A DNA stretch of 42,657 bases. It comes from a virus. A program made the translations under genes and the position numbers. The stretch covers positions 1 through 42,657 of IMG/VR virus record IMGVR_UViG_3300007960_000048. One strand, given 5' to 3'. The notes below the pieces were generated by a model, which had not been told where the DNA came from, did no database searches, and saw nothing but the letters and a program-made list of their open reading frames with translations. This document shows positions 5,801 to 42,504 of this stretch, piece by piece (the first letter of the stretch is position 1; every line of letters begins with the position of its first letter).

Positions 5801-7414
5801 GAGCTACGCGTTTCAGGTAATCCGGTATTCACGGACTTCCCGGCGCCCCTTGGCTTCAACCGGGTACGTATCTCCCATGACACCGGTTCGGGAGTCAACC
5901 GCACCAACAGCATTGAGATCTTCAAGGATCAGTACACAGGCGCGGCCGATCCGGTGATCAACACGGCGGAGCTGAGCATCGACAACGGTGTGGCTATCCG
6001 CTACGTGTCGGGCATCCCGCACGTCACTGCCTCGGAGAACTGGGGCCTCTACGTCGATGCGGACAACCTCTACAACATCACGTACCAGCAGAACCTGCTG
6101 ACCGTAGCGGATGCGAGCGACGGTACGTACTCGTTCGACCTGCAGTACTACCTGACCACGTATGCCAGCCCGCAAGACGCTACGTGGATCCCTAGCCCGG
6201 AAACGGTGTTCCTGCTCGGTACACCGACTGATCCGTACGACACGGTTCAGCCGATGACCGCGCTGGTGGCGTCGGACGGCTACACCAGCCGTGACCTGAC
6301 GATCAACTTCAACGATGTGTTCGTCAGCGACACGGATGTGGTGCTGAACTTCTCCGACCCGTATGGCTCTCCGTATGGGCGATTACTACACCTCGGACGG
6401 GCCGGCGCCTCTGTCGGTACGACTACTGTCGAAACCTTCGCCAGTGAGAAGTATCGAATCTACCCCGACACATGGGGTGGGACCGACCTCGTTAGCCCCG
6501 TTACCAGCCCCATCTTCACTTCGTTCACTACCCAGCCCGTGGCAGGGGACGTGCTCGAATCTGGCACGTACGGTTGGCCGAGTGGTGCGGAGCTCACGGC
6601 GCTAGGCACGGAAAGCACCTGGAATGTGACTGACGGCTCGCCGTCAGCTGAGGCCCGCTCGGGCAAGACGTTTGCGGTCAATCCGGGCACACGCACGTCG
6701 CGCCCGGCGCAGGTCAGCGACCTCGGCCTCGTACACCCCGGCTACAACACAGCTACGGAGTACGATGCACGCACGCAGATGCCTGCGCTGAGCAGCCCGT
6801 TCAACGTCTACGGCAGCTACGGTAGCCCGTCCTACGACTACTACACCGACTACTCGGCTCAGAGCTCAGTGGTCTACTACCGACTGTTCACCAGCGGCAC
6901 AGCGGCCAACCAGGGTCGTCTGCGGGTGTACGGCTACTTGCGGGATGCCTCCGCCTCTCCGGCGCTAACTTCATACGAGAGCTACAGCTCTCCGCTCAGT
7001 AGCCCTGACTTCGTTGGCAGCTGGTACAACGTCGGCCCCAGCGCTTCTCCGGTCCCGACCCTGAGTGGTATCAGCGCGGAGATCAAGTTCGTTGGCGACC
7101 AGAGCTCGGTGCACGCTGATACGCCGCTGGGTAACCCCGGCAAGACCGGCTGGCTCGACATGCTCACAACAGGTGCTTCCAGCCTGTACGAGTCTGGAGA
7201 GGACGGCTACGGTGCGGCAGACACAGGAGGCATCACGATTGGCGCTGGCTACGTTGACATCTACTGGCGGGCCGGTGCCTTCACTACCGGCAACACCAGC
7301 AACCAGGCAGTAGTCCGCATCGCACTTCACGGCAGCATCGGCCTGCGCACTGTTATCACCCAACTGCAGATGCTCAACCAATCCACTGACACCCCCTGGA
7401 GTAGCGGCGCGTGA
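2798..7414 (+). CDS. Giant Ser-Pro-rich tail fibre / virion structural protein
   Basis: A 1538-residue protein. Residues about 3-92 form a putative Ig-like domain (He_PIG type: LPNAFVGESYRVRV, LPEGMTIDLDTGTL, YTPTITVTD). A low-complexity Ser/Pro linker follows at residues 170-186. The rest is Ser/Thr/Gly/Tyr-rich beta structure with a GGHSH motif near residue 808. Ser-Pro dipeptides are scattered through most of it, about 38 by eye, but are scarce in the central third. There are no transmembrane segments and no catalytic motif. Context, flanked by fibre genes and overlapping both neighbours, makes it a long tail fibre or decoration protein. The Ser-Pro richness could mark flexible loops or O-glycosylation sites. 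The exact role is unknown. Confidence 0.6.
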   Translation: MADLTIITTALPNAFVGESYRVRVQARRGTLPYRWTATGLPEGMTIDLDTGTLAETTAGILAPQVGVYTPTITVTDAVGATAQLTPSLTVRPANYRRRTTLMLDPTLQAQVERFPADSVTREEVTGHFAEGPRRNVRLGPGGAFEADVFSHWAGQIGFASGASDATIPESPSASPSSPTPASPSPSAGVSVGPAVISLYDVVRDLQDNAKVLAEPVVLTVTAYDSLESPTTPVQAIGFTASDVYLGDNLDVVLTEYTSGSAYDSPDFSIGYPALAQSITLPADAKVDALTVYGSRPATGQVGGVTVSISEIAGSPADTVAINTGVYASPLGSSPKVVAVGYISPSQFKTDASRAAWDETFAISVPLTVPNAVSPASPGVAASPIILSGSTDYYLVFQSDYFLSPSSPANYLRLAATVDSTVTNVIPGSTASVVTTGGALVSPLYATNEAASPAQTVTAVAYALDVLWNSATVGVVTIQSTDPFNSPTADKYWVGGSTTTAAQVRQQAFSLIDGYDRSGAGPVEDLTNWDEVVDAYGNQAQITQVNIVGGAEVNPSGGGQVDADGFLSTGGITLRVAWTPNSRGAVPPAPFKVVAGRRRTLGNLDADALIRTANKTGSTDAAILAQLSDAIPSNPLLSLAQIEPDAAGNVGLTVASGALGINKFSASSTVQLSFLATLVAEQLGGSSTSVQFDSLGALTLLAGDYLTVTPTANQIRLDADPGVATINSVAPDGSQNIQLTAGEDAAHAGQTFVTFSTGTNEVVVGTNIPDATTSQAGLHSTTDKERINALFSGAAAVSTSTTGGVSGGHSHTARFLTLDQDISGYLTLTSGMTIEDALFSINTALASQFTTASESGALSTLNETYIPAFQQSYLSDSSPTIVYASPGYKPGDLVTNLVAGTAGTTFSVVTTPFGDPGNAGTLSLELGTASPSPSTWTVLEQLDISLTYGNALTAIGGSPPNYSDVATHMGSNPVQPGGSPTTKIAFQAVDYLGLDNTSAPVFELRVSGNPVFTDFPAPLGFNRVRISHDTGSGVNRTNSIEIFKDQYTGAADPVINTAELSIDNGVAIRYVSGIPHVTASENWGLYVDADNLYNITYQQNLLTVADASDGTYSFDLQYYLTTYASPQDATWIPSPETVFLLGTPTDPYDTVQPMTALVASDGYTSRDLTINFNDVFVSDTDVVLNFSDPYGSPYGRLLHLGRAGASVGTTTVETFASEKYRIYPDTWGGTDLVSPVTSPIFTSFTTQPVAGDVLESGTYGWPSGAELTALGTESTWNVTDGSPSAEARSGKTFAVNPGTRTSRPAQVSDLGLVHPGYNTATEYDARTQMPALSSPFNVYGSYGSPSYDYYTDYSAQSSVVYYRLFTSGTAANQGRLRVYGYLRDASASPALTSYESYSSPLSSPDFVGSWYNVGPSASPVPTLSGISAEIKFVGDQSSVHADTPLGNPGKTGWLDMLTTGASSLYESGEDGYGAADTGGITIGAGYVDIYWRAGAFTTGNTSNQAVVRIALHGSIGLRTVITQLQMLNQSTDTPWSSGA
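3305..3355 (+). repeat. Ser-Pro-rich linker tract inside the giant fibre gene
   Basis: Seventeen codons (residues 170-186) contain only Ser, Pro, Ala and Thr, arranged as a degenerate SP/SPS repeat. The tract separates the N-terminal Ig-like part from the large beta-rich body and is probably an extended flexible linker. Serine is encoded by a mixture of TCG, AGC and TCT, so this is not a recent exact tandem duplication. Confidence 0.7.
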
Positions 7415-8640
7415 GTGATCGAGCTAAGCGATATGGCGAGGTCGTAATCACCGGTGCGGCCCTCGGCGCAGTAAGAGGCTACTACAAGGGTCTCCGTCGT
7501 GCGGCCGACAACATCACCAAGGGCCTGCAAGGTCTTGACAGCAAGGTGGCGCGTCAAGCGGGCCAATCAGCTCGCTGGTCGGGAGCGTCACGGGCTGTTG
7601 CTAAGGCAATCAAGACTGACCCCGCAATGCGCTCGCAGTACTTAGCCGGTTCCCCTAGTACTCGCGCCCGAATCTCATCTAGCTACAACCAAGGTGCACA
7701 AGACTTGGGGAAAGCTGGGCTCAAAATTATTCGCAACAGCGCTCGCAACAACGCCATCAAAGGTGCTGCTGTTGCCGGGCTGATCTACGCCGCAGGCAGG
7801 TACGCAAGTCGCGTGAAGAAAGACACTACTGCCCGACCCCCGGGCGTCGCAGCTGACGGTCGGCTGGTGAAAGCAGCTGCAGTTCTCAGTATGCTCAAGG
7901 CGCTGCCGAAGCCGCCTTCGCTCAAGCCGATAAGGTCGATGCAGATGAACAAGCCGCCGAAGCCGATGATGGGTCAAGTCAGTGCCCCGAACCACCTACG
8001 TAACACGTTGAGCAGCAACAACATCACCAGCCGAGCTGCCGGCTCTCTCACTGGCGGCGGGATGCTCAAAGCGGCTGAGGAGGCTCCCTGGGACAAGAAG
8101 AACCCGAAGGAAGCCAAAGGTAAGAGCAAGACGCTGACGCCCGAGCAGAAGTCTCGAGCAAAAGCACGCGCTGCAGCTAACGGTCGGCCCTACCCCAACT
8201 GGATCGACAACGCGCACGTGGCCAAGACAGCGATGCTTCGTGGCTTCGAGGACGAGCTGCAGAAGATCGCCGCACGCCGCACCGACATCTACGCCTCCAA
8301 GTCGCTCATAGACGGCCACGCAGGCGGCGAAGAGGCGAAAGAGCGTAAGCGCAAGCTCAAGAAACAAGCGTCGGAGACACCTGCATGGACTCGCAGCGAA
8401 GGCAAGAGCAAGACGGGCGGGCTGAACCGCAAAGGTGTTCAGTCGTATCGAGAAGCTAATCCAGGCAGCAAGCTTAAGATGGCGGTTACCAAGGACCCGA
8501 GCAAGATCAAGCCGGGCTCAAGCGAGGACAAGAGGCGCAAGAGCTTCTGTGCACGGATGGGCGGGATGCCGGGGCCGATGCACGACAAGAGCGGCAAACC
8601 GACGCGGAAGAAGCTTGCGCTCGACAAGTGGAACTGCTGA
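7411..8640 (+). CDS. Basic virion-associated protein with a conserved phage C-terminal domain
   Basis: A 409-residue, strongly basic protein. Residues about 115-135 (AIKGAAVAGLIYAAGRYASRV) are a hydrophobic, small-residue helix that could be a membrane or membrane-inserting segment. A Lys/Pro/Met-rich linker follows. From about 248 there is an ARAAANGRPYPNWIDN stretch and then AMLRGFEDELQKIA (residues 274-287). The last about 65 residues (W-x-R-S-E-G-K-S-K-x-G-G-L-N-x-K-G, then R-R-K-S-F-C-A-R-M, ending K-L-A-L-D-K-W-N-C) match from memory a domain of unknown function common in environmental phage proteins. It carries five copies of the hydrophobic-x-K-x-A motif. Function unknown; the start GTG overlaps the upstream stop by 4 bases. 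Confidence 0.6.
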   Translation: MSDRAKRYGEVVITGAALGAVRGYYKGLRRAADNITKGLQGLDSKVARQAGQSARWSGASRAVAKAIKTDPAMRSQYLAGSPSTRARISSSYNQGAQDLGKAGLKIIRNSARNNAIKGAAVAGLIYAAGRYASRVKKDTTARPPGVAADGRLVKAAAVLSMLKALPKPPSLKPIRSMQMNKPPKPMMGQVSAPNHLRNTLSSNNITSRAAGSLTGGGMLKAAEEAPWDKKNPKEAKGKSKTLTPEQKSRAKARAAANGRPYPNWIDNAHVAKTAMLRGFEDELQKIAARRTDIYASKSLIDGHAGGEEAKERKRKLKKQASETPAWTRSEGKSKTGGLNRKGVQSYREANPGSKLKMAVTKDPSKIKPGSSEDKRRKSFCARMGGMPGPMHDKSGKPTRKKLALDKWNC

Positions 8641-8664
8641 GCTATCTCTATTTGATTGCTTGTG

Positions 8665-9863: not shown

Positions 9864-9900
9864 CATAGTCTCACCGTCAGGGGTCTACCACGGAGTGACA

Positions 9901-10185: not shown

Positions 10186-10203
10186 CTTCCACGCTGTGAT
10201 AAG

Positions 10204-10237: not shown

Positions 10238-10283
10238 GTGTCATGAGTAGTTTGTCCGCGTTCGTTACAAACCAAGGAGCAAC

Positions 10284-11738: not shown

Positions 11739-11739
11739 A

Positions 11740-18725: not shown

Positions 18726-19358
18726 ATGAACGTCCGAACCCTCTACCGCGGCTACGTAGACGGCCTGGCTAAGCTCGCCAACATCGAGCTCAAGTGGGAC
18801 GCTACACAGCAGCGCAGCCTTCCTGGGCAGCAGATGCCGTCAGCCAAAGCCCCCAAGCCGCAGGGTGATCCTGCCGCTCAGCAGGCCCCTGCAGTGCCGG
18901 ACGAGGTTACGCAAACCGGTCCTGCCGCTCCCGAGCAGCCTGCAGACGCCGCTGTCGGTGCAGCGCCTCCGCCCGGGATGATGATCGATCCCGTGCAGGC
19001 AGAGAACCAGCGACTCCAGACGCTGGTAGAGAACGCAAAACTCAGACTCCAATACACGCAACTCGAACAGCAGATCGCAGAAGCTAAGAATCCGGCTACA
19101 GCCGGTGCAGCTGCGGCTGTTAAGACCCGGGCATCTGGGTCTAAGGGTTCGGCCGAACCGAAGGCTGAGGCCAAAGCAGCAGATAAGGCAAAGTCCGAAA
19201 AGGCTGAGCCGAAGGCGTCAGGTAAGAAGCCTGATGTGGCTGGTGCGGCGGCCAAGGCCACGGTTAAGCCGAGTAAGGGCAAAGCGGACGACAAGGACGC
19301 TAAGCAGGACAAAAAGCCTGCTGCCAAGACCAAGGACGGCCAGGAGGCCAAGAACTGA
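18726..19358 (+). CDS. Histone-H1-like Lys/Ala/Pro-rich protein
   Basis: A 210-residue protein in three parts. The first about 20 residues carry YRGYVDGLAKLANIEL, which resembles the GFxDELxKIA peptide seen elsewhere in the window. A Pro/Ala/Gln-rich linker follows. Residues about 93-122 form a short coiled coil (QAENQRLQTLVENAKLRLQ). The last about 85 residues consist almost entirely of Lys, Ala, Pro, Gly, Ser, Asp and Glu, like the tail of linker histone H1 or bacterial H1-like proteins, though with more acidic residues. AAGGA at 18713-18717 serves as ribosome-binding site. It may contact packaged DNA or act as a disordered internal virion protein. The role is inferred from composition only. 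Confidence 0.55.
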   Translation: MNVRTLYRGYVDGLAKLANIELKWDATQQRSLPGQQMPSAKAPKPQGDPAAQQAPAVPDEVTQTGPAAPEQPADAAVGAAPPPGMMIDPVQAENQRLQTLVENAKLRLQYTQLEQQIAEAKNPATAGAAAAVKTRASGSKGSAEPKAEAKAADKAKSEKAEPKASGKKPDVAGAAAKATVKPSKGKADDKDAKQDKKPAAKTKDGQEAKN

Positions 19359-22938: not shown

Positions 22939-23366
22939 CCCGACGCAGGACCCTCACAGACCGAGTGCAGCAAGGCGTTGCACAACGACTGAAGCAGCAA
23001 GGAGCTATGCCCAAGCTCACTGCTGCGCTCCTGCGTATTGACTCTGAGGAGATGGACGTGTCGCGTGCTCGACGTATCGAGCTGCTCGACATGAACAAGG
23101 ACATTGACTGCCGTCGATGGCAGGTGCTGTACAACGATACGGCGCGCTACGAAGTCATCAGCGCTACTGAGAAGACCTCAGCTGCCGGTGACTACTTCAT
23201 CCGCGTCATCTACTTCGAGAAGGGCGATAACCTTCCGCTCTACAAGTCCCAGCAAGAGCTGCGCGAAGGAGATGACCAGGCAGAAGCACGGCGCGTCCTG
23301 AACAGCGAAGATGACGAAGAGCTGAACGAGCTTTTCGCTGGGTTGTCGGACGACGCTGATGATTGA
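22935..23366 (+). CDS. Hypothetical protein between portal and RNA polymerase
   Basis: A 143-residue protein whose ATG overlaps the portal stop by 4 bases and whose end overlaps the polymerase start by 8 bases. The N terminus is basic and helical (TRRRTLTDRVQQGVAQRLKQ), the middle is a probable alpha/beta unit (DCRRWQVLYNDTARYEVIS, YFIRVIYFEKGDN), and the last 30 residues are strongly acidic. Being coupled on both sides it may be a head-tail or polymerase-associated protein; a small polymerase cofactor is possible but unsupported by any motif. Confidence 0.5.
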   Translation: MTRRRTLTDRVQQGVAQRLKQQGAMPKLTAALLRIDSEEMDVSRARRIELLDMNKDIDCRRWQVLYNDTARYEVISATEKTSAAGDYFIRVIYFEKGDNLPLYKSQQELREGDDQAEARRVLNSEDDEELNELFAGLSDDADD

Positions 23367-29300: not shown

Positions 29301-30525
29301 CGTACCGATCATCGTCGGCAAGTCCTACGCAGAAGGCCACGACCTTGGCGCCTACCTCAGCACAACGCCTGGTGCACGTAAGGGTCTGATCGACAAAGGT
29401 CTGTCTGTTGCTGATACAGGCTACTTAAGCCGCCTGCTGGTCAACTCGAACGTCGAGATGACCATCAAAGCGGATGACTGCGGAACGATGCAGGGTATCG
29501 AGATGTCTCTTGACGACAAGGAGATCTCCGACCGCTACGGTGCTGAGGGTGCGTACCGCAATCAAATCATCACGCAAGAGCTTGCACGCCGCTTGCGGCA
29601 GAAGGGCGAGAAGCGCATCAAGGTGCGTTCGCCTATGACGTGTAAGGCAGTTGGCGGCATCTGCCAGAAATGCTTTGGCCTCGACGAGAGTGGTAAGTCA
29701 CCTCGCATTGGTTTCCACATTGGTGCGCTTGCTGGGCAGACTATTGGCGAGCGTGCTACGCAGGTGACGTTGCGCGCGTTCCACACAGGTGGTGCGGTTG
29801 GCTCAGAGTCGAACCTTGGCTTTGACCGGATCAAGCAGATCCTGGAAATGCCGCAAACCATTAGAGGTAAAGCAGTTCTGGCTCAGAACGACGGTGTAGT
29901 TAACAAGATCGAGCCCGGTCCTACCGGGGGCGACTATGTCTTCGTGTCGGGCACTAGACATTTCATCCCGCAAGAGCTCGCAACCAAGGTGACGCGAGGC
30001 CAGCGGGTCAAAGCAGGCGATCAACTCAGCCGCCACGGCATCGTCGAGCCGAAAGAGCTGCTGGACCTCACAGGAGATCTGCCGCGCGTGCAGAACTACC
30101 TGATTGATGAGCTGGATAAGAACTACAGCGCGTCAGGCAGTAAGATTCGCCGCAAGATCTATGAGACTGCGATCACGCCTTTGACCAACCGGGCGAAGGT
30201 CACTGAAGCCAACGATGGGTCCAAGTTCGGTGTCGTGTCCGGCGACTTTGTGCTTACTAATCAGATCGAAGAGTACAACGCCAAGATTCGCAAGATGCGG
30301 GGCAAAGAGATCGAATACGAGCCGCTGGTCGCAGGCATCAAGGCCGCGCCTAGCTACAGCACCGACTTTGTCGGATCGCTAATCCACGAAAAGCTCCAGA
30401 AGACGCTCGAGCGAGCCCCCACCATGGGGTTGAAGACTGATCTGCAAAAAGGTCATCCCATCTCTCAACTGGCGCTGACTAATCTGCGCTCCATCGACTC
30501 TGTCAAGCGCCCTGTCAAGATATGA
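23359..30525 (+). CDS. RNA polymerase, fused beta and beta-prime subunits, intein-containing
   Basis: A 2388-codon ORF, about 2040 residues after intein removal. The beta part (to about 1360) has DQNNPL (343-348), VHPSHFSLLDPLHTPEG, WKGYNFEDGIVISES and G-D-K786-x7-K794-G, matching the two active-site lysines of E. coli beta (K1065, K1073). The beta-prime part starts near 1361 with EILSMSSGELKKP and carries NMDFDGD (1737-1743, the Mg-binding aspartates), a bridge-helix region (GARKGLIDKGLSVADTGYLS), zinc cysteines 2041, 2095, 2102 and 2105, and a trigger loop (QVTLRAFHTGG, 2135-2145). The N-terminal beta-prime zinc domain is not seen. No alpha, omega or sigma gene is in the window. It overlaps both neighbours inside the virion cluster, so packaging in the particle is possible but inferred. 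Confidence 0.95.
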   Translation: MIESAHLERFTELLAKSEDIVKAQFPVIGDKSTLTASNFRWRKVGADVLLDVKRQRDVKLKEGTLNAVLVADVKIKNESGKVLDEKNRHPILLIPHLTANGSYLVKGKEVQVVSQFRLRPGIYTSDANDNQVEVFLNTTASRTLKILLNRDTGLIRLRIGSGFHVPIYSVLRCMGMRDAEIRQLLTNELYPTNFEAADLRRDVERMLSKLRPYAQSNELDEQMRLVREFMESKPLDPAVNKLTVGRPVSKIDRSAFYEGVKKALAVSRKEAQADDKESLAFKSIHSVEDFVPEKIQNAAPAIQRKLKFELMRNPTIDSVIPPMTFSEPVTQFFTTSEFTRYSDQNNPLDMASVNALVTTIGDGGISSSHAITDDVRTVHPSHFSLLDPLHTPEGDKVGVTNHLSLGAIKKGQTLFVPVYVAATGKRTEVSVQDLDGTTVAFPDQYSNMPEDPKKGFDGKPKPKDPESVRARRRNQIADVKASEVDYIFVSPDAFFSSTTAMVPFLNNNHANRVLMGDKHVEQSVGLVDPDKPLVQHRLAGGGYEELFGSALTPKAVDIRTGEARGGVVTEVTDDYIKIRPSRGRVYKVPLRHNYPLNSNTYLHDEPIVKVGDRVKAGQDVARNNFTKDGSLAMGKNLKVAYTAWKGYNFEDGIVISESCAKKLTSTHKYEFRVQIKKKVHVGRKKYLAAFPTEVANCPADLYTESGIVKKGATVPPGTVLIPAIQEAEYHPEYDYSKLHRSAGLKFVDISEVWDSAYEGTVVDVVESRGFVKVYIHTKEQMQVGDKLSSRHGSKGIVTCFDDQTDILTANGWKPFSELTLSDKISAQIGGRLEFVTPEALHRFDYSGPMYGVANDHLDYLVTPDHRVWSRIEHYRGQTAEYKFQRADEVKGRRYLQYAAKSSLPEHTAAVFVLPKAARAKGRDCLRKFNTEDFAELLGWYLAEGCLAGGRYGVAQVRQYRIHIAQSQVANPDNCKRIGALLTKLGITWKYHYTDKSRGHGYFRFANKAVYEYLHSLGNAWEKYIPEHWFHTSQAALTRLVDAFNLGDGAKRPKHQAMCISITSEQLAVDLHRAWVLTGGSGVIRFVAGRNEYRDQWCLSLYRDRVEQGFQNKDRYTTEYSGEVFCVTVPGGLVYVRRNGKCHWSGNCILPDNEMPKGQDDQTIDLLMNPAGVPGRVNTGQLFEAAAGKLAEKTGKVYYADNFNEKGTAGTLQKLKKELADAGISDEETIVDPTTGDQLDDVLVGNMTWFKLKHQVSKKISARAATGERYSVDQQPTKGGDASAQRIGALDTFSLLSGDATAFLHDAFGLKSQRNDEYWRAVQTGQPTPPPQTPFVEEKFIAMLLAAGINLEQSGSTIKATPMTDNEILSMSSGELKKPLVVNAKNLNPEKGGLFDPGLTGGIGGNRWNHITLETPVVHPLMIDAVAAVGAFKTKKQLQQIIDRQLFVTPDGQITEEAEGNITGADGVRRILDNVDVEKEIQITEKAAAGKRGTGLDKAHKRLRYLKALKVSGIKPADAYVNKQLPVIPPKFRQIAVQPDGTLSVADAVHGYREVMLVNNQIRELRRLGVDEENLRPLYQALTGAVGGVVGTSDPLTRARNFQGFVSQIKGKTAPKYGFFQSKVSGRAQDLTGRSTVIPNPKMHLDEVGVPQEMAARVYKPFVVKRLQSMGKTPIEARKAIEENDPLAVKALEIEMEHRPVLMNRAPSLHKFSIQAFKPRLIQGKAVEVNPLIVGGFNMDFDGDTAGIHVPVSEEARKEAFDRLLPSKNLFSPQDHSLVHSPTKETALGVYLMTTPKVRGNTPSVSNWESLFQLYRDKKVKANQAARVGGQVHCIGQWIYAQTFPQAVRPAYRSTTRKLMDADLERAGRELSSGEAARVITEVKNLGNHYVTEVGFSVSLRDLEIDTKKRDAVIRKAKRRSKTVGYDVAANEAVAELSLLLDAAINNRFVEAGPLSGALGKKGQIQQMVLSPVGTRDHKNQVVPIIVGKSYAEGHDLGAYLSTTPGARKGLIDKGLSVADTGYLSRLLVNSNVEMTIKADDCGTMQGIEMSLDDKEISDRYGAEGAYRNQIITQELARRLRQKGEKRIKVRSPMTCKAVGGICQKCFGLDESGKSPRIGFHIGALAGQTIGERATQVTLRAFHTGGAVGSESNLGFDRIKQILEMPQTIRGKAVLAQNDGVVNKIEPGPTGGDYVFVSGTRHFIPQELATKVTRGQRVKAGDQLSRHGIVEPKELLDLTGDLPRVQNYLIDELDKNYSASGSKIRRKIYETAITPLTNRAKVTEANDGSKFGVVSGDFVLTNQIEEYNAKIRKMRGKEIEYEPLVAGIKAAPSYSTDFVGSLIHEKLQKTLERAPTMGLKTDLQKGHPISQLALTNLRSIDSVKRPVKI
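25753..26796 (+). mobile_element. Intein with LAGLIDADG homing endonuclease domain
   Basis: In-frame insertion of 348 codons (residues 799-1146). It starts with Cys799 (block A: CFDDQTDILTANGW), has block B T862-P-D-H865, and ends VRRNGKCHWSGN followed by Cys1147 as the +1 extein residue. Both splicing cysteines and the terminal Asn are present; the penultimate residue is Gly rather than His, as in some other phage inteins. Two LAGLIDADG-type motifs are intact: LLGWYLAEG (acidic E943) and LVDAFNLGDG (D1047). Flanking sequence rejoins as GSKGIVT-CILPDNEMP, a continuous polymerase motif. Parts of the insert look more AT-rich than the surrounding gene, as expected of later arrival. Confidence 0.95.
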
Positions 30526-30974
30526 ACGCATACGAAGCACTCTTGGCTCAACTTGAAAAGCTGGCAAACGTCAAGTTGACGGCCGGAACTGGATTCAATC
30601 GTGCGGTGCTGCCCGGGAGCCGAACTATACCAGGAGGATTTGTGAAACGAGGAGCTATGGAGAGCTACGTGTCTGAGCTCGCCAAGATTGCTGAGCATCA
30701 GTACACAACGACTGAGATCGACCGCGCAGGCCGTCGGCAAGACTTGGAAGCACAGCAGTTCCGCCGCGACTACAAAGGTGCTCCGGCCACTGGTGAGGAG
30801 CGCGAAATCGTTCGCCGCTTTGCGCAGAAGACGATTGCCCTGCCTCAACAAAAGGGCTTGAGGATCTCACTCAAAGACTGGGTGCAGCGCCTGATTCGCA
30901 TCATCGAGACGCGGCGTCCTGAGATTCGCGAGAAGATCATTGAGTCGCTGAAGGAGAGCGTCAAGCAGATCTGA
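30522..30974 (+). CDS. Hypothetical protein following the RNA polymerase
   Basis: A 150-residue protein overlapping the polymerase stop as ATGA. It opens with ALLAQLEKLANVKL and later has YVSELAKIAEHQY, both K-x-A motifs of the kind seen in other virion-cluster proteins. The C-terminal half is basic and helical (ISLKDWVQRLIRIIETRRPEIREKI). A strong AGGAGG at 30632-30637 precedes an in-frame GTG at 30642 (residue 41), so a shorter 110-residue product may also be made. No family recognised. Position suggests a virion or polymerase-linked protein. Confidence 0.55.
   Translation: MNAYEALLAQLEKLANVKLTAGTGFNRAVLPGSRTIPGGFVKRGAMESYVSELAKIAEHQYTTTEIDRAGRRQDLEAQQFRRDYKGAPATGEEREIVRRFAQKTIALPQQKGLRISLKDWVQRLIRIIETRRPEIREKIIESLKESVKQI
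30632..30644 (+). promoter_or_regulatory. Internal ribosome-binding site and GTG start
   Basis: AGGAGG at 30632-30637 is followed four bases later by an in-frame GTG at 30642, inside the preceding ORF. A second purine run (GAGGAG) precedes an ATG at 30657 in the same frame. This is a better ribosome-binding site than that of the annotated start at 30522, which depends on overlap with the polymerase stop. Either the true gene begins here or two forms are produced. Confidence 0.5.
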
Positions 30975-32428: not shown

Positions 32429-32788
32429 ATGACCAATCTCACACAGTACTGGGTCCGCGTTGAACCCGCGTTCGACAGCACCTCAAGCGTCAAGACGACG
32501 CAGCTTGGTGTGATAGGCGTTACAACCAACGCTAGCTACAGCATCACCAACAAAGGTCGCATTCCTGTGATCCTGCGTATCCAGGTAGCCGGCGCCGGCG
32601 GTACGTGGGCTACGTTGATGCCCGGAGAGACCGGAGGCTTCAACGCCACTGGTACGTCCGCCCAAGCAATCACGTTGGATGCATACCGTCGCTACGCGCC
32701 CATCTTCGTTTCTGTCAATTCTGACAAGTTCTCACCAGGAACCGATCCGCAGCACATTGGTGTACTGCAGGTGACACGCAATGCCTAA
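32429..32788 (+). CDS. Small virion structural protein
   Basis: A 119-residue beta-rich protein with few charges and no cysteines, 18 bases after the spike gene. Its end overlaps the next start by 8 bases. Pattern: strands around YWVRVEPAF, QLGVIGVTTNASYSITN and PVILRIQVAGAGGTWATLMPGETGGF, consistent with a single beta-sandwich domain, perhaps a decoration or baseplate protein. No family recognised and no K-x-A motif. Confidence 0.5.
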   Translation: MTNLTQYWVRVEPAFDSTSSVKTTQLGVIGVTTNASYSITNKGRIPVILRIQVAGAGGTWATLMPGETGGFNATGTSAQAITLDAYRRYAPIFVSVNSDKFSPGTDPQHIGVLQVTRNA

Positions 32789-34463
32789 GCTCCGGGGACA
32801 AGCGCTGTTTGCTGAGGCCCCGAGCTTCGGCGACTTCGAGAAGTCGGCATCCTCACGGCTGTCACGTGACTCAAAGAACTGGCCTGAGGAGGTCATGGAC
32901 GTGCTGCACCAAACGCAGCCGTACTTGGCCGACTACCACATCAACGTCCGCATGAACAAGACGGACTCTGATAGTGGGCACGGTGTCGGTGCGATCAACA
33001 TTGACGACAAGGTAATCATCCCTGTCGTGATCTCTGATTGCCGCCTAGCACCGCTAGACGTGTTCATTAGCAAAGAGGACGTGCTGCCGCTCACACGTCC
33101 TGCGCTGGAGGAAGCGCTGCAGCGTGACGACCCGATCGGGGAGCCGGTGAAGCCGGGCCGTTCAGGTGAGTCGTCCGACGCATCGATTGCGTATCTCACG
33201 TTGCCTCCGTTTGACGGCAAGTACGCTTACGCATCGCTTAGCTACGCTGACGATCAAGTCAAGCAGGCTATGGCGTACCTCAAGCCGAACCAGCTGGAGT
33301 GGGGTCTGACGACCAGCCGCGCTTTCGAGGACGTGCTGCGCAAGTACGCAGCAAACGCCACTGAGCCTGTCGTTGAAGACACGCGAGCAGCAGCAGCCGT
33401 AGTCGATGTAGAGGTCAACCCTGCTCAGCTGATCCAGGAACCGGGCATATACAAGGTCGCTACCGCTGATGGTGAGCGAGCCGGCTTCGTAGCGCACAAC
33501 GTCTACTACTTCGACTTGGACGACCTGCGTGAAGGTGTCCAGGCGTTTGTGGGCCTCGACAAAACTGCCGCGTTTACTGATCGTCCCCTGTGGGGCTCTG
33601 CGTACGACGGCGTGCCGGAGCTTGAGGAGGACGACTGGAGCGGTACCGGCGTCTTTGTGTTCGTCAAATCGGCGGACACCATCGTCACCGAGCCCGTGAA
33701 CATTCGCGGTTCCGCCGGCAATGACTACATCGCTGAACTGCGTGGCGATAAGTCAATCAAGTTCCGCAAGACTGCTAGCGAGCAACCGTTCCAGCGTGTT
33801 GAAGGGGATGTGGACACCATCCTGCTGAACGACGACTGGATCTTCTTGAAGCTCGCAGACAAGGCACAGCCTGTGGACTACCAGCCCACAACCAGCGACG
33901 TGCCGGCAGCCCAAACGATCACAAAGGTAGGCGGCTACGCCCGCATGCCTGACGGTGAGACAGTCAGACTGCGTGAGTTGGCTGACTACCTCGGACGGAC
34001 GTATGAAGATGCCTTCGCAAAAGAGGCCGCTAGCCGGCTGATGGCTGATGGCGTAGTCAGCTACGTAGAGCTGCCCGCTCCGGAGGTTAAGCCGATCGAA
34101 GGCATGCCGGTTCTCTCGAACGAAGAGAAGGCAGCTCTCTGGAAAACGGCAGCTCTGGTTGAGCAGGCTATCTACCAAGCTGAGCGCCAGCAGCTCATCA
34201 AGTGTGCTGAAAGCGCAGAAGAGCTGAGCCGACGCACAGTAGACGCAGTGCTCAGCCTCAACTTCTTGAACGAGCAAAACGTCCTGAAGTTCGTGGAGTC
34301 GCTGGACACGATGCGAGACGCTCGTCGCGCCGTTGCTCAGTTACTGATTGCAGCACGCGTTGGCCTTGAGGTTGACTCGTCTCCGATCCGTACAGCGCTG
34401 TTTGCACTAGACGCTGTTATCCGCGACCTGACGGAACTGAAGAACATTACTTACAGCGGGTAA
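32781..34463 (+). CDS. Hypothetical virion protein rich in the K-x-A motif
   Basis: A 560-residue protein, ATG overlapping the upstream gene by 8 bases. The N-terminal 45 residues include SFGDFEKSASSRLSRD. Residues about 55-130 (NVRMNKTDSDSGHGVGAINI, VIPVVISDCRLAPLDVFI) and about 215-370 (IYKVATADGERAGFVAHNVYYFDLDD, DWSGTGVFVFVKSADT) look like beta domains; the C-terminal 150 residues are helical. It has about nine hydrophobic-x-K-x-A motifs (for example FEKSA, LDKTA, FRKTA, FAKEA, LWKTA). No enzymatic motif. Probably an internal or head-associated virion protein, inferred from motif and place. Confidence 0.5.
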   Translation: MPKLRGQALFAEAPSFGDFEKSASSRLSRDSKNWPEEVMDVLHQTQPYLADYHINVRMNKTDSDSGHGVGAINIDDKVIIPVVISDCRLAPLDVFISKEDVLPLTRPALEEALQRDDPIGEPVKPGRSGESSDASIAYLTLPPFDGKYAYASLSYADDQVKQAMAYLKPNQLEWGLTTSRAFEDVLRKYAANATEPVVEDTRAAAAVVDVEVNPAQLIQEPGIYKVATADGERAGFVAHNVYYFDLDDLREGVQAFVGLDKTAAFTDRPLWGSAYDGVPELEEDDWSGTGVFVFVKSADTIVTEPVNIRGSAGNDYIAELRGDKSIKFRKTASEQPFQRVEGDVDTILLNDDWIFLKLADKAQPVDYQPTTSDVPAAQTITKVGGYARMPDGETVRLRELADYLGRTYEDAFAKEAASRLMADGVVSYVELPAPEVKPIEGMPVLSNEEKAALWKTAALVEQAIYQAERQQLIKCAESAEELSRRTVDAVLSLNFLNEQNVLKFVESLDTMRDARRAVAQLLIAARVGLEVDSSPIRTALFALDAVIRDLTELKNITYSG

Positions 34464-37375: not shown

Positions 37376-38542
37376 ATGAAAAACATCGAGATTCAGTTGC
37401 TGGCTCAAGACGCTGCGCGGACCTACGTCCGTGACGGCGCTAGCCTCAATGAGTCAATCGCCAAGATCGCCCAGGACAAGGGTCTGACGCGCTTGGAGAT
37501 CGGCTCGCTGGTGACAGCCGCCAATCACGCCACCAGTGACGGGCTCCGCAAGGTGGCAGCCAAGGGCGGCCAGGAGTTTGACCTGGCATCTACAGATGCC
37601 GTCCTCGAGCTGCTCGGCCCGCAGGACAAAGGGGTGTCCGTACAGGAGATCCGTAAGGTCGCCTCTTCGTTCATCACTGGGCGGGGCTCGACCCTCGACC
37701 GCGACCTGGACCGGATTGATCCGAAGTCTAAGGAGCTGTACGAGGCCGAGAAGCGCGCAGCCCTGATCCACCTGGAGAAGGTCGCATCTCGCGCTGACAA
37801 CTACGGGCGTATGATCAATGCGCGCTCCATCGGTCTAGCTCAGGACTTCCGCGAGGACATGACTGAGCTGATGAAGCTCGCCACTGAGTACGTCTACTCA
37901 GCGCGTGGGCGGCTGGCCGACATGCACAAATACGCTCAGTGCTTGACCCCGGACAGCCCCGGCCGCTGGACCCCGATCTTCCAGGCGGTTCAGAACGAGA
38001 TGCGTAAGCATGCGCACCCCACTAACGTCGCCCTGGCTGACGCCACTGAGCTTGCCGCCGTCGACGACTTCGATCGCTCAGGCGGTCGTCTTGGTGGGCC
38101 GGACGTGACAGTCATCAACGGTCGGGCGGCGCTCTACGGCACGCTGACCGAGGTCAAGCGCAAGATGGACCTCTCGGAGAACCTCAACGATTGGAAAACC
38201 GAGGTCGACAACCTGAGCAGCACTGTTCGTGACATCCAGCAAGTGATCATGGACAACGAAACCGCTGAGCCGCAAGTTCAGAAGTTCGCAGAGTCGCTAG
38301 ATGCTCGCACAGCCACAACCGATGGGTTTGCAGCTGTAATCGACGCGGCAATAACAAAGACAGCTGCATCTCAAAGCGGTGTCGATTCTGTGATGAAGGG
38401 CTACAAGCCTACGTCACTAAAAGACGTACTGAGCTCCGGTGCAGACAAAGCAATCACACGGGGGTTCGGTCAGCTGACGCGTGACTACATCCCCGGTACC
38501 CACCAAAGCAAAGCAACGCCGGCGGCGCATAAGAGCAAATGA
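37376..38542 (+). CDS. Hypothetical head-cluster protein, densest in the K-x-A motif
   Basis: A 388-residue, largely helical protein between terminase and protease. It carries nine hydrophobic-x-K-x-A motifs: IAKIA, LRKVA, IRKVA, LEKVA, LMKLA, MHKYA, MRKHA, VQKFA and ITKTA. These are spread over the whole length, about one per 43 residues. The C-terminal 60 residues are basic with Ser/Gly/Thr (KPTSLKDVLSSGADKAI, ending AHKSK). No known domain. If the motif is a protease site, this protein would be cut into many peptides, like scaffold or internal core proteins. The start has no clear ribosome-binding site. Confidence 0.55.
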   Translation: MKNIEIQLLAQDAARTYVRDGASLNESIAKIAQDKGLTRLEIGSLVTAANHATSDGLRKVAAKGGQEFDLASTDAVLELLGPQDKGVSVQEIRKVASSFITGRGSTLDRDLDRIDPKSKELYEAEKRAALIHLEKVASRADNYGRMINARSIGLAQDFREDMTELMKLATEYVYSARGRLADMHKYAQCLTPDSPGRWTPIFQAVQNEMRKHAHPTNVALADATELAAVDDFDRSGGRLGGPDVTVINGRAALYGTLTEVKRKMDLSENLNDWKTEVDNLSSTVRDIQQVIMDNETAEPQVQKFAESLDARTATTDGFAAVIDAAITKTAASQSGVDSVMKGYKPTSLKDVLSSGADKAITRGFGQLTRDYIPGTHQSKATPAAHKSK

Positions 38543-39249
38543 GCGGAGTATTCACTGAGTTTGCCTGCCTCTACGGCACGCACCTCTCTCGCGATCAGCG
38601 GGCAGATGTGTCAGACTTCGGCGTAAAGCTGGCGCGCGCGATCAGCGAAGATGACAGTGAGGCTGTTGTCGACCTGGTCAAAGAAGCTGCGCAGCAGATC
38701 GAGGATCCGGATTACGCAGAGAGCTTCCTAGGCTTCTGCCAGGAGTTGGCAGACGACTGCGACCGGCTTGAGAAGACTGGCGCAGCTAGCACGCTGCTGC
38801 CGGCGCTCAGGAACCCGACGAACATTGCGAACGCGATCAAGTTTGTAGGTGCGGGTGCGGGCCTTGCTCTGGCAGCAACGCCTGCTATCAGCGCCAGCAT
38901 CCGTAAGCGCCAGCGTGGGCGGCAGATTAACGAGTCCGTCAAGCAGATCGTCCACGAGAACCCAACGCTGCGCGACGATCCCAACGCCCACCATTACTTC
39001 CGAATCATCAAGAACTTCGCTCCTGATGTAGCGGCGGATCCGCTGCTGGCGGGCAACGTGATGCGGGATATGCAGACCTTCGGTCCCCGCGCACTGACAA
39101 CTACGCGCGTCAAGGACCTGCTCAGTCTGCAACGTGATTACGGGTCCTACCGTGATGAGAGCACCGCGAGGTTGCCTGAGCTCGGTAAGTCAGTGGCCAG
39201 CCTGTCGAGCAAGGCGATGGAGGGCTTCGCGGGCCGCAAGAAGAACTGA
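38539..39249 (+). CDS. Hypothetical head-cluster protein with hydrophobic segment
   Basis: A 236-residue protein overlapping the upstream stop as ATGA. The first 85 residues are helical and acidic (SRDQRADVSDFGVKLARAIS). Residues about 95-118 (ANAIKFVGAGAGLALAATPAISAS) are uncharged apart from one Lys and Gly/Ala-rich, a possible membrane-inserting or packing helix, followed at once by a basic cluster (RKRQRGR). The C terminus is basic (GRKKN). This could be an ejected or internal protein that meets a membrane. No family recognised. Confidence 0.5.
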   Translation: MSGVFTEFACLYGTHLSRDQRADVSDFGVKLARAISEDDSEAVVDLVKEAAQQIEDPDYAESFLGFCQELADDCDRLEKTGAASTLLPALRNPTNIANAIKFVGAGAGLALAATPAISASIRKRQRGRQINESVKQIVHENPTLRDDPNAHHYFRIIKNFAPDVAADPLLAGNVMRDMQTFGPRALTTTRVKDLLSLQRDYGSYRDESTARLPELGKSVASLSSKAMEGFAGRKKN

Positions 39250-39584
39250 TGGCCGAGTATCAGTACACCGCCATCACCGACCCGGGCGGTGCTCCTCCCG
39301 TCTATCGTCAGCAAGACGAATCAGATACTCGTCGAGCAGGCCCGCAAACCGGTCATCTCGAGAATCGAGAAAGCTACCAGCGCAAGCACTCTCGCAAGCA
39401 CCGCAACTATCGAGGCGTAGAAGGGCCGGCTAAGTACGCAATGCTCTGCGGGTTCGCTGACGAGCTCAGCAAGCTCGGGTCGAGCCGAGGGAAGGCTATT
39501 GGGTCACTACTACGTGCTAACGAGGACATTGTGCGCGCTTACAGTTCGCACAGGCGTAGGATGAAAGAGCGCAACAAAAAGTGA
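39249..39584 (+). CDS. Small basic protein with the GFxDELxK peptide
   Basis: A 111-residue, strongly basic protein overlapping its neighbours by 1 and 4 bases. The N-terminal 55 residues are polar and disordered-looking with a His/Arg/Lys cluster (YQRKHSRKHRNYRG). Residues 64-77 read AMLCGFADELSKLG, nearly the same peptide as residues 274-287 of the protein at 7411-8640 (AMLRGFEDELQKIA). The end is a basic helix (SSHRRRMKERNKK). Directly upstream of the protease. Possibly an internal DNA-contacting protein; inference only. Confidence 0.5.
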   Translation: MAEYQYTAITDPGGAPPVYRQQDESDTRRAGPQTGHLENRESYQRKHSRKHRNYRGVEGPAKYAMLCGFADELSKLGSSRGKAIGSLLRANEDIVRAYSSHRRRMKERNKK

Positions 39585-40954
39585 GCTTCGCAACCTCAGG
39601 CAAGACGTTCGATGTAGGCGGCTACCACGATTGGGGCCCTGACTACAGCCTTGTGCACGGCTCGACGTTCGACAAGATCGCATCTGCTGACTCAACACCT
39701 GAGTCGCTACTGCGTGTAGCTGAGCAGCTGAAGCCGCGCCAAGACGGGCGCTACGTCCTGTTGAACGCGTTAGGTGCGTGCGAGACTTGGGGCCATAACC
39801 GCAACGGGGACGCATTCCCGGAGTGGAGCCTCAAGGCTATGGATCCGCCTAGCGACATCGCACGCTACATCAATGATCGCGTTCGGAAGAAGTACCCGAA
39901 CATCGTCATCCCGCCCAAAGAAGCGTACGGCGAGCACACGTTCCCGCGTTACGCGCACGTCTACAAGTTCCACGAGAACAAAGACCCTGCGAAGTCGATC
40001 GGCGATGTGATCGCCAGCGCATACAACGACAAGATGAAGCGGGTCGAGCTGATTGTGTTCGTCCGCACAAAGCACGCGCCTGACGTCGTCAAGATGATTG
40101 ACGACGGTACACCGGTCCCGTGGTCAATGGGCGCTAAGCTGCCTTACGACCGTTGCAGCATCTGCGGCAACCCGGCTAAGCAGCGCGCCGACTACTGCGA
40201 CCACCTAAAAAACTGGCTGGGGAGGATGCTCCCTGATGGTCGCCGTGTTTACGCGTACAACGATTTCCCGCGCTTCTTCGATATCTCCCGGGTGCTCACA
40301 CCGGCCGATCGCAGCGCGTGGTCGATCCGCAAAGTAGCCAGCGCTTCGCTGTCCAAGAAGTCCGAGATACGGAAGGACATGCCGATGGAGCCTGTGGCTA
40401 AGTCAGTTCCTGCCAAGAAGTCGGATACCGACCCCCGCCTGGTCGACTTCGTGAAAAAGTCAGCCCACCAGGACCTCACATACATTAAGCCGCTCCCGGC
40501 CGGTGTACTCGAGAAACTGGCCAACGCTGGAGCACAGGAAGCCCTGCGCGCTTGCGTGTCGTTAGGGATCTATCTGACGAATGACGAGTACGAGAAAGTG
40601 GCTGGAGAGACTCAAATCTCAGATCCGTTGCCGCTGGCTTCTCCTAACCGCACACTGGTAATGGCTTTGGAGCCGCATCTGGAGAAGCGGTCGATGTTCG
40701 ATCCGTACTTCACCAGGCGCACCGCGAGCCAGCTCTCTCATTTCGCCCTAGTAAAAACTGCGTCTGCCTACGGGCACGATCGGTACCGTAACCTGCTGCG
40801 TCAGATAGACTTGGAGAAGTTTGCTGCGCTACAGGAGAGAGACCCGATCATCCGCTTCGCGTTGCAGCGAAACGGCGTAGACGCAGCTTTCACTGTACCC
40901 CGAGCATCGAGCTCGGTTCCCAACTGGATGCCATTCCTGGCAACCGCAATCTGA
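39581..40954 (+). CDS. Prohead (capsid maturation) protease
   Basis: A 457-residue protein with a GTG start overlapping the upstream stop as GTGA. N73-R-N-G-D-A-F-P80 is the N-x-N-G-D/R motif of phage prohead proteases (T4 gp21-like and relatives). A histidine-rich stretch (YGEH119TFPRYAH126VYKFH) and PWS182MGAK supply candidate catalytic His and Ser of the herpesvirus-assemblin-like fold. An insert C192-S-I-C195 with C206-D-H208 looks like a small zinc finger. The C-terminal about 200 residues carry most of seven K-x-A motifs (IRKVA, LEKLA, YEKVA, LVKTA and others) and may be a scaffold-like or self-cleaved tail. Its place before scaffold-like genes and a capsid candidate supports the call. 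Confidence 0.75.
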   Translation: MSFATSGKTFDVGGYHDWGPDYSLVHGSTFDKIASADSTPESLLRVAEQLKPRQDGRYVLLNALGACETWGHNRNGDAFPEWSLKAMDPPSDIARYINDRVRKKYPNIVIPPKEAYGEHTFPRYAHVYKFHENKDPAKSIGDVIASAYNDKMKRVELIVFVRTKHAPDVVKMIDDGTPVPWSMGAKLPYDRCSICGNPAKQRADYCDHLKNWLGRMLPDGRRVYAYNDFPRFFDISRVLTPADRSAWSIRKVASASLSKKSEIRKDMPMEPVAKSVPAKKSDTDPRLVDFVKKSAHQDLTYIKPLPAGVLEKLANAGAQEALRACVSLGIYLTNDEYEKVAGETQISDPLPLASPNRTLVMALEPHLEKRSMFDPYFTRRTASQLSHFALVKTASAYGHDRYRNLLRQIDLEKFAALQERDPIIRFALQRNGVDAAFTVPRASSSVPNWMPFLATAI

Positions 40955-40961
40955 ACCAACC

Positions 40962-41369
40962 ATGTCACAGAACATCGAAGACCTGTTCAAGCGGTTCGCA
41001 GCTGAAGCTGACGAGGTCGAGAAGACCGCCTCGGAAGGTTCGGACGCGGCTACCGAAGCGACCACCGCTGACGAAGACACCATGGACAAACTCGCGGAGG
41101 ACCTACAGGCCGCAGGTCGTGAGTTTGGCGAAGCTGCTGTTTCGCACATGATCGAGAAGCTCGCTGCTGGCGTTCCGGCTGGCGGTCGCGGTATCGCCAT
41201 CCCGGAGGGTCCGGTCCACGCTACGGCGAAGAAGATCGGTCTGCTCAAGGGCGAAGCCCACGCACCGGGCGACGATACCAGCGTTCGTGCTGAAGAAGAC
41301 GGCGCGATCTCGGGCAACCCGGCACCGGTCGTCAACCCGCAGCGGAACCTCCCCAAAGCGGGCGCCTGA
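40962..41369 (+). CDS. Scaffold-like small acidic protein
   Basis: A 135-residue acidic protein seven bases after the protease gene, with no ribosome-binding site (CCAACC before ATG), so coupling is likely. The N-terminal half is helical (IEDLFKRFAAEADEVEKTAS, then EDTMDKLAEDLQAAGREFGE) with K-x-A motifs VEKTA, MDKLA and IEKLA. The second half is Gly/Pro-rich and flexible (PAGGRGIAIPEGP). Position between protease and capsid candidate, small size and acidity fit a scaffold or inner-core component. Confidence 0.45.
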   Translation: MSQNIEDLFKRFAAEADEVEKTASEGSDAATEATTADEDTMDKLAEDLQAAGREFGEAAVSHMIEKLAAGVPAGGRGIAIPEGPVHATAKKIGLLKGEAHAPGDDTSVRAEEDGAISGNPAPVVNPQRNLPKAGA

Positions 41370-41405
41370 TCTACTGTCCGCCGCAACCTCAAGCGCACTG
41401 AACCA

Positions 41406-41906
41406 ATGACCTCATTCAGTAACTACCTGGCTGAGCGCCGCGAAGCTCAAGTCGAAGAAGAGCTGCTGGCCAAGATCGCCGCAGTCGAAGAAGCCTGGGC
41501 CGGCGATGAGAATCGCATTGCTCGCCTGTCGGAGGCTACCGATATCGTCAAGCAGGCCATGGAGGAAGGCTCGCTTTCGTCCGACCTGTCGCGCTCGGAG
41601 CAGTTCTCTCTGGCCGTTGACCTTGTCGAAGCCTCCTTCGAGGACGACGAGCAGGTCAAAGAGGCCAGCGAAGAGGGCTACTACGAAGACGTAGAAGAAG
41701 GCCCCGACTTCGGCGACGAAGAGCTCAACAAAGAGGCGGCGGAACAGGTCATCGGCCTGGGTCGCGTCCTCGGTCAGCGCCTCGCTGAGCTTGGTGTCAC
41801 CGTCGACGATCTCGAGAAGATTGCCGAGGACGAGCAAGAGGCTTTCGGTCGCCACCTGGCGCAGCTGACTGCTGAGATCCTGGGCGAAGACGAAGAGAGC
41901 CGCTGA
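41406..41906 (+). CDS. Scaffold-like acidic coiled-coil protein
   Basis: A 166-residue, very acidic and helical protein. It begins with a Glu-rich helix (AERREAQVEEELLAKIAAVE), continues with EDDEQVKEASEEGYYEDVEE and ends with a predicted helix of LxxL pattern (VIGLGRVLGQRLAELGVTVDDLEKIAEDEQ). K-x-A motifs: LAKIA, IVKQA, LNKEA and LEKIA. Acidic helical proteins next to the protease and capsid gene are typically scaffolds or core proteins removed during maturation. No direct family match was seen. Confidence 0.5.
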   Translation: MTSFSNYLAERREAQVEEELLAKIAAVEEAWAGDENRIARLSEATDIVKQAMEEGSLSSDLSRSEQFSLAVDLVEASFEDDEQVKEASEEGYYEDVEEGPDFGDEELNKEAAEQVIGLGRVLGQRLAELGVTVDDLEKIAEDEQEAFGRHLAQLTAEILGEDEESR

Positions 41907-41920
41907 CGCTCTACTGAGCG

Positions 41921-42133
41921 ATGCAGTTCTCTTCCCTAGACGAGCTTCTCAAGGTTGCCGTTGAGGCAGGCAAAGCCCCTATCGAGGCTGAGCCTTCCTC
42001 AGCGGAACAAGAAGAGGAGCTCACCCGCGAGATCGACGAGACTTTGGCAAAGCAGGCGGCTTCGACCGAGTCGAGCCGTACCGGCGTAGCCAAGCTCGCG
42101 CTTGCAATCGACCTCCTCTCCAAAGCCACCTGA
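41921..42133 (+). CDS. Scaffold-like very small protein
   Basis: A 70-residue acidic helical protein 14 bases after its neighbour. It begins QFSSLDELLKVAVEAG, close to the DELxK peptide found in other proteins here, and has three hydrophobic-x-K-x-A motifs (LLKVA, LAKQA, VAKLA) in only 70 residues. It may be a fragment-like member of the scaffold group or a short internal protein. Confidence 0.45.
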   Translation: MQFSSLDELLKVAVEAGKAPIEAEPSSAEQEEELTREIDETLAKQAASTESSRTGVAKLALAIDLLSKAT

Positions 42134-42135
42134 AC

Positions 42136-42504
42136 GTGGGTAAGACCGTCCAAGTCCGAATCGACCTGCTGGAGAGTCTTCGTGACGCTCTGTGCAAGCA
42201 GGCTGCTGAGCGCGATAGCGCCCGAGCCGAGGTTGCGGCCCTTCAGCAAGATCTGGAGGTTTATCGCGGCGTTATGGCGCTCGTGGAGGACGGATTGGTT
42301 GATCCTGCGGACATGACAGAGAAGGTTGCGGAATACCGCACCAACCCCGAGAGCATCGCTCTCGTCAAGCAGGCCGCTGCTCTCGGATTCGGTTCAGCAG
42401 ACGTCGGAGCACTGGACCACACTGGTACTGGTGACTCTGCGTCTGGTGCATCGGCCGAAGCCCGGCTGATCACTGGACTTCGGACAGCACTCAACCCCGA
42501 GTAA
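42136..42504 (+). CDS. Scaffold-like coiled-coil protein
   Basis: A 122-residue protein with a GTG start two bases after the previous stop. The first about 55 residues form a heptad-like helix (VRIDLLESLRDALCKQAAER, then ARAEVAALQQDLEVYRGVM). K-x-A motifs LCKQA and LVKQA are present. The C-terminal 40 residues are Gly/Ala/Ser-rich. It lies immediately upstream of the capsid candidate, matching the position of a scaffold or capsid assembly protein. Confidence 0.45.
   Translation: MGKTVQVRIDLLESLRDALCKQAAERDSARAEVAALQQDLEVYRGVMALVEDGLVDPADMTEKVAEYRTNPESIALVKQAAALGFGSADVGALDHTGTGDSASGASAEARLITGLRTALNPE

Follow-up and report, generated by a model that had tools for sequence, protein, structure and literature searches.

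A Lys-x-Ala motif concentrated in the head proteins of RNA-polymerase-encoding phages, a probable recognition sequence of their prohead protease

The viral sequence IMGVR_UViG_3300007960_000048 from IMG/VR, analysed here over its full 42,657 nucleotides and called the window, encodes a group of proteins that share the five-residue motif h-x-K-x-A, where h is any of L, I, V, M, F, Y or W. In the window and in related phages the motif is concentrated in proteins of the head module, and we consider it very likely to be the sequence recognised by the prohead protease that the phage itself encodes at 39581-40954, a predicted enzyme of the T4 gp21 and herpesvirus type. The initial annotation had read the motif as a prohead-protease site marking scaffold and internal proteins, and this reading fits most of our comparative tests, namely the N-terminal sites of the capsid protein, the sites flanking the protease core, the layout of the T4 rule, and the background level of the motif in contigs without the protease. 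That the proteins are cut, and by this protease, is what we infer from these observations. All coordinates are positions of the window, and the genes of the site-bearing proteins lie on its plus strand.

The motif had been counted by hand at about 54 copies in twelve proteins of about 3240 residues; our count is 55 in 3242 residues, against 7.5 expected from residue shuffles of each protein. The twelve proteins, with start positions 7411, 18726, 19358, 30522, 32781, 37376, 38539, 39581, 40962, 41406, 41921 and 42136, carry 5, 1, 8, 2, 10, 9, 1, 7, 3, 4, 3 and 2 copies respectively, and ten of them are individually enriched (shuffle p<0.05). The window count was made on 34 open reading frames (ORFs) chosen from 175 as likely genes, and the 22 outside the named group hold 7 matches where 10.1 are expected. 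The figures of about two copies in the polymerase, about one in the portal and none in the terminase proved correct (2, 1 and 0). The window record itself is 42.7 kb, but a 183,184-base IMG/VR contig includes all of it at 99.995% identity, and on this contig we ran the full-genome count against shuffles that had been proposed as a check. Among the 169 called ORFs of this contig, the 34 overlapping the window have 62 copies (17.8 expected) and the 135 outside it have 48 (40.6 expected). The excess is kept to the window ORFs while those outside are at background, which places the motif in the head module. One more site-rich protein, of 181 residues with 3 copies, is found downstream of the window at window position 51083.

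The mReC lineage of Weinheimer and Aylward (2020), as set out in the main text of PMC7481178, combines beta and beta' RNA polymerase chains distinct from the cellular ones with Caudovirales head genes. The 2388-residue product of 23359-30525, the "polymerase" of the initial annotation, is a fused RNA polymerase beta-beta' chain with Rpb2 and Rpb1 Pfam domains; its relatives are found at 56 IMG/VR loci, at least three of which match the window at 100%. The terminase of the window matches phrog_675. The major capsid gene starts beyond the window end, at window position 43088, and its product matches phrog_2522, a major head protein, at 7.9e-6. Gene content, in the form of these RNA polymerase relatives and of the terminase and capsid genes, suggests that the window phage is of the mReC kind (RNA-polymerase-encoding Caudovirales). 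PF07068, the capsid family reported for mReC in PMC7481178, was not matched by the capsid proteins in a Pfam scan, and a term search of the main text of that paper found neither "protease" nor "cleavage". Salmonella phage Arash and three Vibrio phages (D69, D148 and D181) are relatives that have been isolated; the genomes read were those of Arash, with a coverage of 100 of 181 kb, and D69.

Of the 56 RNA-polymerase loci we searched 30; 24 records gave a capsid match, and from 20 of these we took head modules to describe the motif in relatives. All 20 head modules are enriched, with observed/expected ratios of 2.3-4.9, and the ratios for 50-kb stretches of Arash and D69 are 2.6 and 2.7. An unbiased gapped-triplet scan of 470 head-module proteins placed h-x-K-x-A first (859 against 231 expected, z 41), while four shuffled sets put through the same scan gave a maximum z of 4.8-6.2. 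The set was made from 488 proteins by leaving out 3 of at least 1100 residues and removing 15 redundant ones; orthologs remain in it, so the counts are not independent. Within it the motif stands at 3.8x expectation, and control motifs are near background (A-x-K-x-h 1.13x, K-x-h-x-A 0.85x, h-x-E-x-A 0.97x; reversed and permuted five-residue forms 0.85-1.24x), so that the enrichment is not lost against helical Lys/Ala composition. The lysine is strict, with h-x-R-x-A at 1.02x, and so is the alanine, with serine in its place at 0.86x and glycine at 1.06x. Shifted forms that overlap the motif are also raised (hxxKxA 1.91x, hKxA 1.98x), probably on account of the letters they have in common with it.

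The residues around the motif have preferences of their own: E, Q or V between the hydrophobic residue and the lysine, S, A or E directly after the alanine, and D or E both just before the motif and two residues after the alanine. The small or polar residue remarked on earlier at the position after the alanine is thus real, hxKxA[SAGE] being found at 6.55x and hxKxA[VILP] at 1.42x. The information is contained within about 9 residues, a footprint like that of protease subsites; there is little helical hydrophobic periodicity, and the flanks are nearly empty. Over 1528 proteins the motif is biased towards N-termini, with a peak of 5.5x at residues 26-30 and 1.7x beyond residue 200. In Arash, split into head and tail by gene position, 14 proteins labelled structural or capsid in or near the head region have 41 copies against 8.4, and 25 labelled structural or spike-tip elsewhere have 18 against 15.0, "structural protein" being the depositors' label, taken without sight of the underlying data. 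Six other Arash proteins were checked, and one of them, gp225, encoded ahead of the capsid gene, carries 6 copies where 0.6 are expected. Loci centred on the RNA polymerase range from 0.22 to 3.36, a spread that probably arises from many of them having few head genes. The locus at 0.22 (L030) has a head module (L111) at 3.3, and a 14-kb locus without the protease at 2.34 (L077) belongs to a contig that is at 1.11 as a whole.

The product of 39581-40954, a protein of 457 residues with 7 copies, matches phrog_18299, a head maturation protease family, at 1.6e-5. The same family is matched by the orthologs from Arash (2.1e-6), D69 (6.6e-7) and L120 (0.012). For the window protein it is outscored by phrog_2774, of unknown function (2.7e-13), and no Pfam family was matched above cut-off. 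The seven copies lie at residues 30, 249, 291, 310, 337, 390 and 411, mostly in the C-terminal part, as had been described. We aligned 20 or, in a second alignment, 18 of 22 orthologs (A1 and A2). The K-x-A of FDKIA (residues 30-34, 39668-39682), at the end of a disordered N-terminal segment of residues 1-35, and that of IRKVA (residues 249-253, 40325-40339), where disorder begins again, both keep their alignment column in 18 of 19 orthologs. The remaining five sites are kept in 0-6 of 19, and the mean column identity is 23%. In the AlphaFold model the predicted local distance difference test score (pLDDT) stays under 50 through residue 35, averages 83-97 by block over residues 41-240, and drops under 50 again from residue 253, so that the two conserved sites mark the ends of the modelled folded core, the predicted catalytic core of about residues 36-248 (39686-40324). 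This placement agrees with the earlier suggestion that the protease cuts itself.

The fold of this core is predicted to be of the T4 gp21 and herpesvirus-protease type. In VIA-align the core aligns with the varicella-zoster virus (VZV) protease at Z 9.6 (115 residues, 2.9 A) and with T4 gp21 at Z 9.2 (130 residues, 3.2 A); unrelated MCE-domain rows reach Z 6.9, below both. Matches in BFVD include gp19 of Bacillus phage G and many proteins named prohead protease. H131, S182 and D234 are invariant in 20 aligned sequences and are candidates for a catalytic triad, S182 being opposite residue 140 of T4 gp21 in an alignment that is not significant. Between the strands of the candidate Ser and Asp, three conserved cysteines (C192, C195 and C206, CxxC...C, residues 192-209) form an insert that looks like a zinc knuckle.

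The major capsid protein also carries the motif near its N-terminus. Of 25 distinct sequences, 24 have K-x-A between residues 15 and 40, 13 of them in the strict form, and in some capsid proteins isoleucine follows the alanine. A conserved anchor of the form basic-L/M/I-R-E could be located in 17 capsid proteins; 16 of these also have K-x-A, with the lysine 12-13 residues ahead of the anchor. Between the protease gene and the capsid gene are four small site-bearing genes, whose products are scaffold candidates. The first (40962-41369, 3 copies against 0.30) is placed much as gene 22 is in T4, an analogy of position. It is followed by a gene for a small acidic protein (41406-41906, 4 against 0.16), one for another small site-rich protein (41921-42133, 3 against 0.20) and, shortly before the capsid gene, a fourth (42136-42504, 2 against 0.17).

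We considered T4, whose cleavage rule we looked up beforehand, as a positive control. Ten head and core proteins were taken as substrates of gp21, and in these the rule [LI]xE[AGS] occurs 24 times where 7.7 are expected; the 236 other ORFs have it 102 times, with 91.4 expected. Eight copies are in the scaffold gp22, one is at residues 8-17 in each of IPI-III, the capsid site is at 63, and gp21 has rule sites at its end. The negative control was a set of seven contigs that carry distant RNA polymerase relatives and in which the profile of the protease found no match; their whole-contig ratios for h-x-K-x-A are 0.88, 0.85, 0.98, 1.11, 0.92, 0.81 and 1.15, with T4 at 1.05. With the protease present the ratio is 1.38 in an mReC relative and 1.88 in the window phage. 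Proteins with at least 3 sites at p<=0.01 number 7 and 8 in these two, and 0-3 in the protease-less contigs. Glu-type rules were also considered and rejected for the mReC head modules. None is enriched in the 470 proteins ([LI]xE[AGS] 1.04x, 295 against 283; [LI]xE 1.14x; AxE 1.03x; SxE 0.99x), counts that bear on the sequence trace of a rule rather than on the enzyme.

The remaining site-bearing proteins are encoded further upstream. The gene at 37376-38542 specifies a core-type head protein of 388 residues with 9 copies (0.94 expected), which falls in a loose iterative family of 38 together with the neighbouring head-region protein of 236 residues (38539-39249, 1 copy against 0.43) and Arash gp220 and gp221, both annotated as structural. 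A head-region protein of 560 residues (32781-34463) has 10 copies where 1.00 is expected. For its family we aligned 20 of 24 non-redundant members longer than 450 residues, from 27, with Arash and D69 left out, giving 19 orthologs. Its best-kept sites are in low-confidence stretches of the model: FEKSA (residues 19-23, 32835-32849), at the end of a disordered segment of residues 1-23, keeps its column in 14 of 19 orthologs, LIKCA (residues 472-476, 34194-34208), in a low-confidence segment of residues 460-495, does so in 10, and the site at 412 has a counterpart within four residues in 12. A search of a phage collection with the 560- and 388-residue proteins gave no match at E<=0.1. Another core-type head protein, of 339 residues and with a family of 13 (19358-20377), has 8 copies (0.54 expected), one of them at residue 1 (MFKLA). 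It is preceded by the gene for a Lys/Ala-rich protein with a single N-terminal copy at residue 14 (18726-19358, 1 against 0.87). A 150-residue protein (30522-30974) has copies at residues 11 and 53 (2 against 0.34, p 0.03). Finally, a basic protein of 409 residues (7411-8640) has 5 copies (1.44 expected, p 0.014) and a C-terminal DUF6321 domain at residues 331-407, with its last copy, LKKQA (residues 316-320, 8356-8370), just ahead of this domain match; it may be an internal protein that associates with DNA and is set free by cleavage.

The rule as we propose it is [LMFI]-[EQV]-K-x-A, most likely with the cut after the alanine and S, A, E or G as the next residue. A cut after the alanine is favoured because small or acidic residues are so strongly preferred at the next position, much as serine is at P1' in SPN3US. 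A cut directly after the lysine is less likely; hxK followed by S, A or G, without alanine at +2, is at background (0.93x). Excerpts of PMC9026906 describe for T4 a prohead core that is assembled, a protease that is released, N-terminal trimming and shredding of the scaffold. By the proposed scheme, site-rich scaffold and internal proteins would make up the core on which the prohead of the window phage assembles, and the protease would be enclosed with them. It would cut itself at the two conserved sites, at residues of about 34 and 253, to free its catalytic core, and would trim some 25-30 N-terminal residues from the major capsid protein. N-terminal targeting segments would be removed from the internal proteins, and the scaffold and core proteins would be cut to short pieces that leave before DNA entry.

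Several observations weigh against a cleavage site. Sites are not confined to disorder: the 560-residue protein, for which chance would give 1.0 over its whole length, has five in a beta domain of some 150 residues that is modelled with confidence, and these five are in the same column in 0-1 of 19 orthologs. Sites inside folded domains fit cleavage poorly, and a restriction to disordered linkers is only partly true. Strict sites are also found inside the catalytic core in 11 of 22 protease orthologs (L110, L115, L117, L118, L119, L120, L121, L123, L125, L126 and L128; not in the window phage, Arash or D69), where they may serve self-destruction, be folded and uncut, or have a second, binding role; self-destruction is known for T4 gp21. 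Of the 25 capsid proteins, 11 are without the hydrophobic residue and a further one has K-x-G, and two of the twelve window proteins (18726 and 38539) are not enriched alone. M-x-K-x-A at residue 1, found in 18 of 1528 proteins against 8.3 expected, makes little sense as a cut, and this weak excess is unexplained. The assignment of the fold has its own difficulties, as Foldseek found no match in the PDB at E<=0.001 (its first hit was T4 gp21, at E 0.06), models that have no clear match often reach Z values of 7-8, and an hhalign comparison with T4 gp21 gave no significant alignment. In T4 itself only gp22 and gp23 stand out individually (Alt has 2 against 1.67), and the T4 rule did not emerge from a blind triplet scan of the ten proteins. 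This makes the mReC signal stronger than that of T4, but enrichment alone is, given these T4 results, an uneven guide to cleavage.

Some of these observations could also be explained if the motif were a multivalent tag, itself left uncut, by which internal proteins, the protease and the N-termini of capsid proteins are held on the scaffold or on one another. Such docking would be in keeping with clustering at N-termini, with multiple copies per protein, with copies in folded domains and in the protease core of orthologs, and with the M-x-K-x-A starts. We nevertheless think it quite unlikely, as the sites kept best lie on either side of the protease core and at the start of the 560-residue protein, and the strict lysine, never arginine, along with the strong small or acidic preference after the alanine, reads like protease subsites. 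In the T4 tag, moreover, the targeting residues (4 and 7) are apart from the processing residues (8 and 10), according to excerpts of PMC9026906. A motif that first docks onto the protease or scaffold and is cut later, with only some copies cleaved, would explain the conserved boundary sites together with the surplus in folded domains; its binding step is conjectural, and we give this reading very little weight. A broader version, in which many copies of the motif load proteins into the prohead through binding to the protease or scaffold and the exposed copies are later cut after the alanine, this combined code having spread through the lineage, and perhaps to phage G, as a switch from a Glu-type rule, has in our estimate a small chance of being right. 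Ordinary composition, that is, Lys/Ala-rich amphipathic helices or internal repeats, is hardly credible: alanine and lysine are indeed abundant in some of the proteins, and internal repeats occur in some, Arash gp223 for instance, yet the explanation is refuted by the triplet scan, the permuted-motif controls, the flanks nearly free of information and the protease-less contigs, there being no enrichment in other genes of the same contig or in other phages.

A prohead-protease recognition sequence, the reading we prefer, resembles several known systems and departs from each. The window protease shares with T4 gp21 its predicted fold and a gene order of protease, scaffold and capsid, and in both phages sites are crowded in the scaffold or its candidates, with one near the capsid N-terminus, one near the N-terminus of internal proteins (each of IPI-III in T4) and others near the end of the protease. 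The T4 motif is L/I-x-E, however, at background here, and the window protease is larger, with its Cys-rich insert, a long C-terminal part and no significant sequence match. The herpesvirus maturational protease (assemblin) is alike in predicted fold and cuts Ala-Ser bonds, although [VLI]-x-A-S is not enriched here (0.94x) and a lysine is needed two residues before the presumed P1 alanine. In T4, phiKZ, 201phi2-1 and SPN3US the prohead protease cuts after glutamate, according to passages of PMC5694885 and PMC9026906, whereas the AxE and SxE forms are at background here. A short linear rule is common to these phages and ours, and SPN3US, from excerpts of PMC10052503, also has many sites in propeptides, a preference for serine at P1' and C-terminal autoprocessing.

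The gp19 protein of Bacillus phage G (L133:14841-15743) is a detectable relative of the window protease (E 1e-14). It has 7 copies of the motif against 0.79 expected, including 41 and 48 near the start and 246 and 272 near the end, and differs in having further copies at 91, 121 and 159 in the middle. Over the 38 kb of phage G examined, the capsid protein gp27 is without the motif. The head regions of phages G, Tonenili and Pupper have 16 copies against 7.5, 10 against 6.0 and 4 against 3.4, and in G it is the protease that stands out. The copies in gp19 suggest that the h-x-K-x-A rule may reach beyond mReC.

A few observations stand apart from this argument. Phage G gp38 has 3 copies of the motif against 0.24 expected. 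Proteins that start with M-x-K-x-A include, besides the 19358 product, L042:3312, L070:3700 and G001 74857 (window -14919). A protein of Vibrio phage D69 (L022:22747-23409) has a long EVEA repeat. The RNA polymerase chain of the window has an insertion of about 350 residues between its SSRHGSKG block (residue 788) and NCILPDNEMP (residue 1146) that looks like an intein by its motif, and the Rpb2_6 Pfam match is split into two stretches.

Searches of an open-access library, some of them aimed at K-x-A, listed no paper that names an h-x-K-x-A rule; what we describe would be a known machine with a recognition rule not found described there. If the reading is correct, this fold would have a further, distinct specificity in the Lys-x-Ala rule that the lineage shares. 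The rule would allow capsid, scaffold, core and perhaps ejected internal proteins to be listed from sequence in a lineage known mostly from metagenomes, and mature N-termini to be predicted exactly, and it would make the evolution of specificity in the phage and herpesvirus protease family open to testing.

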